From the NCBI RefSeq assembly GCF_000220175.1, contig NZ_AFPU01000001.1, positions 779,512 to 843,511 of the forward strand: a stretch of DNA of 64,000 nucleotides, read 5' to 3'. Origin of the DNA: Nitrosarchaeum koreense MY1. Its GTDB lineage: Archaea; Thermoproteota; Nitrososphaeria; Nitrososphaerales; Nitrosopumilaceae. The notes beneath the pieces were generated by a model, which was not told the origin of the DNA, did not search any database, and saw nothing but the letters and a program-made list of their open reading frames with translations. Of the stretch, positions 23,758 through 26,636 are shown piece by piece (the first letter of the stretch is position 1; the number at the start of each line of letters is the position of its first letter). The position numbers and the translations under genes were made by a program.

Positions 23758-24225
23758 TTATTGAATAATTAACAATCCTTTCATCTCGGGATGAATGGTA
23801 CAGTGATAAGCATATTCGCCAGATTTATCTGCCAAAAAGTTAATTGATTGAGATTCAAAATATCCAAGATCTTTTGAATGTACATTAAATTCATCGATGT
23901 TAAAATTATGAATTGATTTTTCATCAGGAGTATTTTTAATTTCATTAATTATATGCAGCGAAACAAGATTTCCTTTGGCAATATTCAAAGTAGGACTAGT
24001 CATTCCAGGACGAGGAGCCTGTTTTCCACCTCTACTTGATTGATGACTAAACAAATAATGACCGTCATCTGATTGTCCAGTTTTAATCAATATATTTTCT
24101 GGAACTAAAAACACTGGATAATCCACATTGACTGGAATTAGAGATTGATATGCATAATAACCGCCTGTTATAATGACTACAAGAATTACAATACCGATTA
24201 GTTTCATAATTGAAAATTTCATCAT
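23758..24225 (-). CDS. Membrane-anchored cupredoxin (type-1 copper protein)
   Basis: 155 residues. One N-terminal membrane helix (IMKLIGIVILVVIITGGYYAY) is followed by a small cupredoxin domain. The C-terminal copper loop YHCTIHPEMKG supplies Cys, His and Met ligands; the fourth ligand is probably the His in the SIHNFNID segment. It could carry electrons on the outer face. Copper proteins of this kind are abundant in ammonia-oxidising archaea. No partner gene is adjacent. Confidence 0.85.
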   Translation of the reverse strand: MMKFSIMKLIGIVILVVIITGGYYAYQSLIPVNVDYPVFLVPENILIKTGQSDDGHYLFSHQSSRGGKQAPRPGMTSPTLNIAKGNLVSLHIINEIKNTPDEKSIHNFNIDEFNVHSKDLGYFESQSINFLADKSGEYAYHCTIHPEMKGLLIIQ

Positions 24226-24246: not shown

Positions 24247-24408
24247 CTATTTTTTTCTCAAGATAATTTGCATTAACGCATCTTTGGAATAATCTATGCC
24301 ATGTTCTTCATCAGTGTGTTTTCCAAATTCTTCGATTACGTGTGCAATTTCACCCTCTGCTACAAAATCACACTCAAATCCATAGTCATTACATCGCAAT
24401 TTTATCAA
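24247..24408 (-). CDS. DUF1059-type small protein
   Basis: 53 residues from TTG 24408. The sequence begins MIKLRCNDYGFECDFVAEGE and continues to HTDEEHGID, the DUF1059 signature. No ATG is available in frame. A minus-strand TTAATTTAG TATA-like box near 24437 gives a transcription start close to the TTG. The palindrome TTAACATTGTTAA (24447-24459) overlaps this promoter. Function of the family is unknown. Confidence 0.7.
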   Translation of the reverse strand: MIKLRCNDYGFECDFVAEGEIAHVIEEFGKHTDEEHGIDYSKDALMQIILRKK

Positions 24409-24446: not shown

Positions 24447-24459
24447 TTAACATTGTTAA
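24447..24459. promoter_or_regulatory. Palindrome TTAACATTGTTAA, copy 1
   Basis: Perfect 6+1+6 palindrome between the divergent DUF1059 gene (minus) and wHTH gene (plus), overlapping the DUF1059 promoter. First of four copies in 1.4 kb. Confidence 0.6.
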
Positions 24460-24547: not shown

Positions 24548-24883
24548 ATGGCTGATTCTCGTAAATATCGTGACAGAATGTACATCATAAAGGACATAAT
24601 ACTTACCCTTTCAGAATATGGCCAGCTGAATCAGACAGCATTGTTTAGTTTTTGCGGATTAAACATATCAAAACATAAGGGAATTTTAGATAATTTGGAA
24701 TTAAATGAAATGATTAAGAGAGAAGAAGTTTCGGAAGGAAAAAGAACCATTACGATTTTCAAAGTGACGCAAAAAGGAATGAATTTTTGTCATGAGATCA
24801 TAGAACCCTATGAAAATCTATTTCCAAGAGGGGGAAAATTCTCCGAAGAATCATTCAAACTCGGGGGTTTACTCTTCATCTAG
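24548..24883 (+). CDS. Small winged-helix regulator
   Basis: 111 residues. Predicted winged helix: YIIKDIILTLSEYGQLNQTALFSF, recognition helix NISKHKGILDNLELNEMI, wing EGKRTITIFKVTQKGM. This resembles the single-domain archaeal regulators of the MarR/ArnR type. It lies beside palindrome copy 1 and is the nearest candidate regulator for the four-site set. Its 3' end overlaps the convergent membrane-protein gene by 15 bp. Confidence 0.75.
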   Translation: MADSRKYRDRMYIIKDIILTLSEYGQLNQTALFSFCGLNISKHKGILDNLELNEMIKREEVSEGKRTITIFKVTQKGMNFCHEIIEPYENLFPRGGKFSEESFKLGGLLFI

Positions 24884-25240
24884 ATCATATTGAGATGAAA
24901 TAGATTGATCAAGTTGTTCTTTTTTCTTCAGATAGTTATAGTAGCGATTATTCCATTTACTAAGCGAGTTAAACTGCCTCAATCCAGCAACTAACCAGAT
25001 GCCCGATGTTACCAATATCACTATAACCGTAACCATCAACAAAATGCCAAAATCACCTTCTTGTTCTATTAAAAGTAAAAATTTTGGATGAGTAGATAAA
25101 TACAATGAAATTATTATTGCAAGCGGAGCCAGAATAAGAGCAGATAAAGAAACACCCAACATAATGCCCTTTAGATGTTGAATTTTTTCAATAAATCCAT
25201 CCATTGAACTTAGAATATCGTTTCTCTCGTCATTTAACAA
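24869..25240 (-). CDS. Two-helix membrane protein with coiled-coil ends
   Basis: 123 residues with two transmembrane helices (about 31-54 and 66-90) flanked by charged helical ends, the C-terminal one lysine/glutamate rich (YLKKKEQLDQS). No family recognised. A minus-strand TATA box (TTATATAA, near 25265) about 26 bp before the ATG predicts a leaderless mRNA. Confidence 0.65.
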   Translation of the reverse strand: MLNDERNDILSSMDGFIEKIQHLKGIMLGVSLSALILAPLAIIISLYLSTHPKFLLLIEQEGDFGILLMVTVIVILVTSGIWLVAGLRQFNSLSKWNNRYYNYLKKKEQLDQSISSQYDLDEE

Positions 25241-25284: not shown

Positions 25285-25500
25285 CTATCGCATAGAGGTA
25301 TTTAGAATATACTTAACATTGTTAATGTGAAATTTAGTTTGTTCTGTTTTTGTTTGTACGTGACTTTGTTCTAAGAAGAGAATGACAACAAATACAACGA
25401 AGGTTTTGTGTTTTAATGAATATTGAACAAAACGAGCATCTTTTTTGTCCATTTTCATATTTCCTAGTAGAGAATTGGATAACTTTATGCAATACACATA
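25285..25500 (-). CDS. Possible small membrane protein
   Basis: An open frame containing MKMDKKDARFVQ, a hydrophobic stretch (FVVFVVILFL) and a polar tail ends at 25285. It would make a small protein with one membrane helix, but palindrome copy 2 lies inside its 3' part and the overlapping frame is also open, so coding is uncertain. The precise start was not fixed. Confidence 0.3.
   Translation of the reverse strand, partial: YVYCIKLSNSLLGNMKMDKKDARFVQYSLKHKTFVVFVVILFLEQSHVQTKTEQTKFHINNVKYILNTSMR
25313..25325. promoter_or_regulatory. Palindrome TTAACATTGTTAA, copy 2
   Basis: Identical to copy 1. On the minus strand it abuts a TATA-like AAGTATAT, about 70 bp upstream of the 25240 membrane-protein gene. 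Confidence 0.55.
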
Positions 25501-25525
25501 TACCATTACAACGATAAGTCATGAT

Positions 25526-25665: not shown

Positions 25666-25678
25666 TGAACAATGTTAA
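25666..25678. promoter_or_regulatory. Palindrome copy 3 (12 of 13 matches)
   Basis: TGAACAATGTTAA lies five bases upstream of the TATA-like ATCTAAATAC (25683-25692), which in turn is about 26 bp upstream of the 5' end of the structured RNA at 25714. Confidence 0.55.
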
Positions 25679-25713
25679 GCATTATCTAAATACCAAAGAT
25701 CAAAAATATTACT

Positions 25714-25842
25714 TATGCAGAAGCACATATCTACTCCAAAGGAAAAATTCCAAGAATTCATAAATTTGCATATCAGCAATGCGTAGTTTCATTTACTGCC
25801 TAAGACACGGGAATTTTTCTAAGATAAGCTTCTGCATTTTTG
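25714..25842 (+). ncRNA. Predicted structured RNA with own promoter and T-run terminator
   Basis: Three nested perfect stems are visible: ATGCAGAAGC (25715-25724) with GCTTCTGCAT (25828-25837); TATCT (25728-25732) with AGATA (25822-25826); GAAAAATTCC (25742-25751) with GGAATTTTTC (25810-25819). Together they make 25 bp closing a ~58-nt apical region that can form GCAT/ATGC. The outer stem runs straight into TTTTT. A TATA-like box at 25683-25692 places the transcription start at the first paired base. A 23-codon frame inside is probably incidental. Not matched to any RNA family I know. Confidence 0.65.
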
Positions 25843-25875: not shown

Positions 25876-25888
25876 TTACCATTGTTAA
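25876..25888. promoter_or_regulatory. Palindrome copy 4 (12 of 13 matches)
   Basis: TTACCATTGTTAA lies across the TTG start of the C2H2 gene, at the position expected for its transcription start given CATATTTTAG at 25845-25854. This suits repression. Confidence 0.55.
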
Positions 25889-26109
25889 GTGATGTTTTAG
25901 TACAACTAATTTCTGCGGAATGTGTGGAATTTAAAACAAAAATTTCAAAGAAAATAGCCGTTCCTAGTTTGAAAAATGTATTCAAAAAGGATCCTCAATT
26001 TACAAACGAGTGTAGAATTTGTAACATGAAATTTACGGATTCAGAAAGAACAAAGAAACACATGATTAAGGCTCACTCAAAACCAAAGCGCGAAAGACAA
26101 GATCACTAA
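25882..26109 (+). CDS. C2H2 zinc-finger protein
   Basis: 75 residues from TTG 25882 or 61 from GTG 25924. The C-terminal part is a classical single C2H2 finger: CRICNMKFTDSERTKKHMIKAH (two Cys, 12 residues, two His). The basic N-terminal half (KTKISKKIAVPSLKNVFKK) could contact nucleic acid. It precedes the tandem Lrp-like gene by 2 bp, so the pair forms an operon. Confidence 0.7.
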   Translation: MLSDVLVQLISAECVEFKTKISKKIAVPSLKNVFKKDPQFTNECRICNMKFTDSERTKKHMIKAHSKPKRERQDH

Positions 26110-26111
26110 AA

Positions 26112-26636
26112 ATGGCAAAAGCATACGTCATGATAAATTGTGAATTGGGTTCAGAAAAGGAAATCATTGCCTCACTGAGAAAAATTGTTGGAGTAAAAGA
26201 GGCCCATGGCACACTTGGTCTTTATGATATTGTGATACAATTAGAATCACCTACTGAACAAAATATTCAAGAAATTGTTACTAAAGTAATTCGTAAAATG
26301 CCAAAAATTCATTCTACAGTTACTTTAACCAGATCAGAATCAGGGGAATTATTTCAAGCATCGGAGAAGCTAATTGGGATGATGTTAGGTCAGAATAAGG
26401 CTCAAGCATATGTAGTCATTCACTGTGATAAAGGAGAAGAGTTTCCAACATTAAAAAATCTCAGCCATATTTCTGAAGTAAAAGAAGCAGATGTGGTTTT
26501 TGGGTTTTACGATGTTATTTGTAAGATAGAAACCTCAAATAACAAAACATTGGAAAACATAATCACAAAGGGCATCAGAAAATTGCCTCATATTAAAACC
26601 AGTATGACTCTTAACATAATCAATGAGCAAGGATAA
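26112..26636 (+). CDS. Tandem Lrp/AsnC ligand-binding (RAM) domains without HTH
   Basis: 174 residues with two consecutive RAM domains (about 1-78 and 95-170). Both show AYVxIxC, a gap of some 20 residues, VKEAxxxxGxYD, then a second half ending in IRKxPxIxxxxTL. No DNA-binding domain is present, so it probably senses an amino acid or partners with a full-length Lrp. Translationally adjacent to the C2H2 gene, with start ATG just behind its stop. Confidence 0.85.
   Translation: MAKAYVMINCELGSEKEIIASLRKIVGVKEAHGTLGLYDIVIQLESPTEQNIQEIVTKVIRKMPKIHSTVTLTRSESGELFQASEKLIGMMLGQNKAQAYVVIHCDKGEEFPTLKNLSHISEVKEADVVFGFYDVICKIETSNNKTLENIITKGIRKLPHIKTSMTLNIINEQG

Follow-up and report, generated by a model that had tools for sequence, protein, structure and literature searches.

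A hitherto uncatalogued gene for a small structured RNA in ammonia-oxidising archaea, which appears to be switched by an operator common to neighbouring genes

Ammonia-oxidising archaea rank with the most abundant microorganisms in the ocean and in soils, and regulatory RNAs and regulons are almost unknown in this group. In bacterial stress regulons, the sRNAs MicA, RybB and MicL are members of the sigma-E regulon. Among archaea, sRNA162 and sRNA154 of Methanosarcina are stand-alone intergenic sRNAs that are thought to regulate in trans. Tan1 is a structured non-coding RNA (ncRNA) of marine group II Euryarchaeota, which has a conserved fold and whose function is unknown (PMC5069720). In this study, a 64,000-nucleotide stretch of the genome of Nitrosarchaeum koreense MY1 (the window) was found to contain a genuine gene for a small structured RNA that occurs in ammonia-oxidising archaea and had not been catalogued before. 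The gene, referred to here as sRNA1, is at positions 25715–25837 of the + strand.

Similar to sRNA162 and sRNA154, sRNA1 is a stand-alone intergenic gene. Different from them, it is linked to a defined operator and a candidate regulator, and to our knowledge there is no sequence or structure relation between these RNAs and sRNA1. Similar to the sigma-E sRNAs, sRNA1 has in its promoter a control element that is also used by a small regulon of protein genes, including those for an HtrA-type protease and membrane proteins. However, the sigma-E sRNAs have no sequence relation to the archaeal RNA, which folds into a closed rod and whose promoter combines an archaeal TATA box with a palindromic operator and involves no sigma factor. 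Tan1, compared by description only, is likewise a structured ncRNA of a marine archaeon with a conserved fold, but it belongs to another phylum and no operator-linked gene set was reported for it (PMC5069720).

Folding identified three colinear stems in sRNA1, where a sequence-only reading of the window had placed them. The outer stem of 10 bp is formed by ATGCAGAAGC (25715–25724) and GCTTCTGCAT (25828–25837) and is supported by fold and alignment. The middle stem of 5 bp, formed by TATCT (25728–25732) and AGATA (25822–25826), is clear in the genus of the window only. The inner stem, found by folding, joins 25741–25751 to 25810–25820 through 10 Watson-Crick pairs and one G-U. The minimum free energy of sRNA1 was -33.9 kcal/mol (z = -3.87), and none of 200 dinucleotide shuffles was equally stable. 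The minus strand of the element also folds (z = -2.91), which is expected because the element is an inverted repeat; the z value was lower on the + strand than on the opposite strand in 29 of 36 copies. In the alignments, the most conserved parts outside the stems were the unpaired ACUCC and the loop UUUCRUUU-n-CUGCC. The former is part of the conserved CTACTCC (25731–25737, +) on the 5' side of a lopsided internal loop, and the latter belongs to the conserved loop TTTCATTTACTGCCTAAGACAC (25787–25808, +), a candidate contact site for a partner.

No match above the gathering threshold was found when the whole window was searched against Rfam 15, the best local matches being far below it. In addition, ARAGORN gave no tRNA or tmRNA match for the element, and a literature search found no description of this RNA family. 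A DNA search detected the element in 10 of the 18 genomes of the window's genus, including three copies in G002, and gave one match in another genus. When the bare inverted repeat was scanned over named genomes, chance matches swamped the signal. Covariance model R1 was followed by the broader R2, for which a cut-off of E < 1e-8 was used for the family count. R2 identified the RNA in 29 of 250 genomes of the family, which belonged to three genera (g1, g4 and g12) and some of which had 2–3 copies; the E-values across these genera went down to 1e-30. The RNA proposed as new lacks an Rfam match and has relatives in three genera. No further genus with the RNA was found at E <= 1e-4 in a 400-genome sample of the class. 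Moreover, a pattern that is free of the fold (TATA box, spacing and ATGYAGA..TTCTRCAT) matched 16 sites in 14 of 95 g12 genomes and none in the control. There is usually one copy per genome. G002 and G159, however, each contain three dispersed copies, and in G002 and G009 orphan copies stand alone with their own promoter, away from the cluster described below.

A paralogous RNA, sRNA2, was not found in the window and was identified at L225:7448-7563 (+), L227:5909-6025 (-), L228:7496-7619 (+), L229:5418-5541 (-), and L244:1501-1614 (-). It has the same operator and promoter spacing as sRNA1 and a different but compensated outer stem (ATGTAGAAGTC/GACTTCTACAT and ATGTAGAATTT/AAATTCTACAT). A third RNA candidate beside sRNA2 (GCGAGAAC...GTTCTCGC) was dropped because its sequence also reads open on the opposite strand.

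The pairs of the outer stem were counted in 36 aligned sequences, in all of which pairs 2–7, 9 and 10 were unbroken. In sRNA2, pair 4 changed from C-G to T-A in five sequences, pair 9 from G-C to T-A in one, and pair 10 from C-G to T-A in two and to T-G in three. Pair 8 changed from A-T to G-T in six sequences. Across pairs 1–10, 11 wobble cells were G-U on the + strand and none was G-U only on the - strand. Given that G-T pairs only in the RNA of the + strand, the assignment to this strand is right. In G009 and G002, both sides of inner-stem G-C pairs changed to give A-U. When the 3' arms were swapped, the outer and inner pairing were both weakened and none of 10,000 permutations matched the native pairing, a figure that is not a strict probability because the sequences are related; within g12, the inner stem does not discriminate in this test. 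Variation in the outer stem was limited, and independent compensatory events are few, because most two-sided changes came from five sequences of one paralogue. The RNAalifold covariation term was near zero on 13 close sequences; most of the support from covariation is owed to the wider set. A covariance search among related Nitrosopumilaceae had been suggested as a check, and it found relatives whose stems are kept through compensatory changes; the conserved secondary structure is that of a structured ncRNA.

The promoter of sRNA1 contains the TATA box TAAATA (25687–25692, +) and the operator palindrome TGAACAATGTTAA (25666–25678; consensus TTAACAwTGTTAA), which is present in all 36 copies and at other promoters too. 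In 36 of 36 aligned copies, exactly 8 nt separate the palindrome from the TATA box downstream. In the window, the TATA box begins 28 nt upstream of the first paired base, 25715, and the distance from its first T to the first paired base was 28 nt in 28 of the 36 copies, 27 nt in four, 29 nt in three and 25 nt in one. Archaeal TATA boxes set the start site at about this distance, and the transcript is predicted to start at or near 25715. Given that the spacing is kept across the compared copies, the register between promoter and fold was confirmed. The T-run after the outer stem (25837–25841, +) is a possible terminator. A T-run of at least four within about 10 nt of the stem was found in 20 of 36 copies, and this is the least conserved part of the element. 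The TATA box and the palindrome directly upstream of it had both been described correctly, with a spacing that proved fixed in every copy. The proposed start at the first paired base agrees with the TATA register, but this base is 25715 and not 25714. Of the promoter, fold and terminator that were said to be in register, the promoter and fold were borne out by the comparison and the TTTTT was only partly conserved. Beyond the sequence-only reading, the analysis revealed that the palindrome is an operator common to a gene set, that there is a paralogous RNA, and which regulator is the likely partner.

Perfect matches to TTAACAwTGTTAA were found at four sites in the genome of the window. Two of them are in the window, between the winged-helix and DUF1059 genes (24447–24459) and at the gene for a small membrane protein (25313–25325), and two are at genome coordinates 542201 and 973625, the last of which is within a coding frame. 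The operators with one mismatch at 25666 and at 25876 (TTACCATTGTTAA, 25876–25888, upstream of a C2H2 Zn-finger gene) flank the RNA. Genome-wide, the set of operators with one mismatch was not enriched (22 versus 39 in the control); the operator and TATA box in register formed a highly specific pattern, with 0 matches in the control.

In the window's genus, the genes behind the operator and TATA box are those for the RNA, the small membrane protein, an HtrA-like protease, a MoxR ATPase and a Zn-ribbon protein; in other genera, the DUF1059 gene is also behind the operator. The small membrane protein (24869–25240, -) has two apparent transmembrane stretches and no Pfam or other family match, and its gene is preceded by the operator and TATA box in several species, with conserved synteny. 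It is very conserved (FIEKIQxLKGxMLGVSLSALILAPLAI), and in every occurrence of the cluster that was seen, its gene adjoins the winged-helix gene. The DUF1059 protein (24247–24408, -; Pfam PF06348), whose gene has an operator, is followed downstream by a cupredoxin-like protein (23758–24225, -; Pfam PF13473). Downstream of the RNA is a C2H2 Zn-finger-like protein (25882–26109, +). The 5' end of this listed ORF overlaps the operator, and its true start is probably further in than 25882. A Zn-ribbon-like protein with CxxC pairs (25334–25522, -), encoded between the membrane-protein gene and the RNA, is conserved in most relatives and is related to another Zn-ribbon gene with an operator in G002 and G009; it had no Pfam or NCBIfam match. 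The ORF at 26112–26636 (+), which is in the conserved cluster, encodes Lrp/AsnC ligand-binding domains in tandem but no DNA-binding domain. Across most of g4 and g12, the genes follow the order LrpRAM, C2H2, winged helix, membrane protein, (Zn-ribbon), RNA and DUF1059; those of the window's genus are rearranged but remain clustered. The RNA is apparently switched by an operator common to this small neighbouring gene set, which is possibly stress-related, as the HtrA-like protease, MoxR, and the membrane and cupredoxin proteins hint at envelope or protein-quality stress. The genes of the cluster are not named in a peroxide proteomics paper.

The candidate regulator of the operator is a winged-helix protein (24548–24883, +), as suggested by its co-occurrence with the RNA and operator and by synteny. 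Its scores were below the cut-offs for HTH_45 (PF14947; 24.2 versus 25.5 bits) and Sso10a_fam (25 versus 60), and it appears to be only a distant winged-helix relative, weakly HTH_45/MarR- and Sso10a-like. At a threshold of at least 159 bits (at least 73% identity), its orthologues were found in 26 of 250 genomes, 25 of which also contain the RNA, and in g12 the identical 15 of 95 genomes hold both. In the RNA-positive G004, G011 and G014, a winged-helix gene of about 55% identity is on the same contig within about 2.5 kb, and the remaining RNA-positive genome, G017, is badly fragmented. Operator-promoters were found in 15 of the 15 g12 genomes with the RNA and winged-helix gene versus 4 of the 80 others (control, 0). 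Those of the latter four, G163, G123, G124 and G181, which have no close winged-helix orthologue, may reflect partial loss, assembly gaps or chance; G163 holds sRNA2. In G122, the winged-helix gene has the operator at its own promoter, which is what autoregulation would require. This strong association makes the winged-helix protein the most likely candidate for the operator's binder. In archaeal promoters in general, a site just upstream of BRE/TATA fits an activator. Given that the spacing of the operator is fixed just upstream of BRE/TATA, the regulator is probably an activator.

We consider it reasonably probable that sRNA1 is a stand-alone ncRNA gene, of a family new to the Nitrosopumilaceae, under a winged-helix-regulated operator and that it acts in trans. 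Its transcript, an RNA of ~125 nt, would arise from a TATA promoter of its own, controlled by a dedicated operator. This operator would be bound by the winged-helix protein, whose gene is 0.8 kb away and which would also control the small membrane protein, DUF1059/cupredoxin and the Zn-finger protein, with the HtrA-like protease and MoxR ATPase added to the regulon in its own genome or in relatives. Folded into a closed rod whose outer stem hardly varies, the RNA would present the internal-loop ACUCC and the conserved loop, and would act as the RNA arm of the regulon, its loop contacting another RNA or a protein.

For such a trans-acting regulatory RNA, base-pairing is somewhat more likely than protein binding. 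The complement of a 16-nt part of the loop, with up to three mismatches, gave 44 matches versus 53 for the reversed control, and none of the matches examined was at a plausible start-codon site. When the neighbouring genes were scanned for duplexes with the RNA, no mRNA-sense target recurred. The one signal that did recur came from the antisense strand of the membrane-protein gene, meaning that the loop resembles the mRNA of this gene. Mimicry of this mRNA was rejected because the similarity within the same species was no higher than that between swapped species (7.7 versus 8.0). If the RNA instead titrates or scaffolds a protein through the conserved loop, the Zn-ribbon or C2H2 protein of the cluster would be an example of a partner, given that small, putative nucleic-acid-binding Zn proteins are encoded alongside the RNA. 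The bases of the loop and internal loop are also conserved across genera without a detectable mRNA complement. However, the RNA showed no recognisable protein-binding motif of a known kind and nothing in the analysis favours protein binding over base-pairing, and we regard this alternative as rather unlikely.

The reading of sRNA1 as a stand-alone, trans-acting RNA gene must also be weighed against cis-acting, coding and mobile elements. A same-strand gene is a short way downstream, as would be the case for a riboswitch or attenuator. This gene, however, varies (C2H2 in the window's genus versus DUF1059 in others), an operator and promoter of its own separate it from the RNA, and the orphan copies stand elsewhere. 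Without a constant cis gene and with an intervening promoter, a leader is very improbable. Many archaeal mRNAs are leaderless and begin with ATG at the start site. Every copy of sRNA1 starts with (A/G)TG at the predicted start and is open for 14–43 codons, which is compatible with a leaderless mRNA of a short peptide, but the peptides diverge after MQK/MQR. Relative to the ATG, frames 0, 1 and 2 accounted for 17, 5 and 8 occurrences of the loop and 17, 11 and 2 of the CTCC motif, and sRNA2 starts with ATG TAG. A conserved short peptide was refuted by these differences in frame and by the ATG TAG of sRNA2, and a coding role is even harder to credit than a leader. The absence of a conserved open reading frame is in line with a structured ncRNA and bears out the view of the sequence-only reading that no protein frame of value exists here. 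The inverted ends ATGCAGAAGC...GCTTCTGCAT could be the terminal repeats of a miniature inverted-repeat mobile element, for which the dispersed copies of G002 and G159 might speak. Given that the RNA is syntenic in three genera and usually single-copy, that its promoter and operator are outside the repeats at a fixed distance, and that its inner stem and loop are conserved, such an origin is the least credible of all.

It is possible, although we suggest it only tentatively, that a winged-helix activator distantly related to MarR/Sso10a drives both paralogous sRNAs together with envelope and quality-control genes (HtrA-like protease, MoxR, membrane protein and cupredoxin). If true, the archaea would have in this two-RNA regulon their counterpart of the sigma-E/sRNA arrangement; as far as the literature search shows, no sRNA regulon has been described in these organisms before. 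The sequences define the RNA family, its operator and promoter geometry, and a strong candidate regulator, and the lineages with the RNA very likely include cultured strains; thus, expression, binding and target searches are directly feasible. The copy on L165 of G138 looks decayed, as CTACTCC and the loop motif are lost and the distance from TATA box to stem is 25 instead of 28, and the winged-helix match of G138 carries two stop codons.
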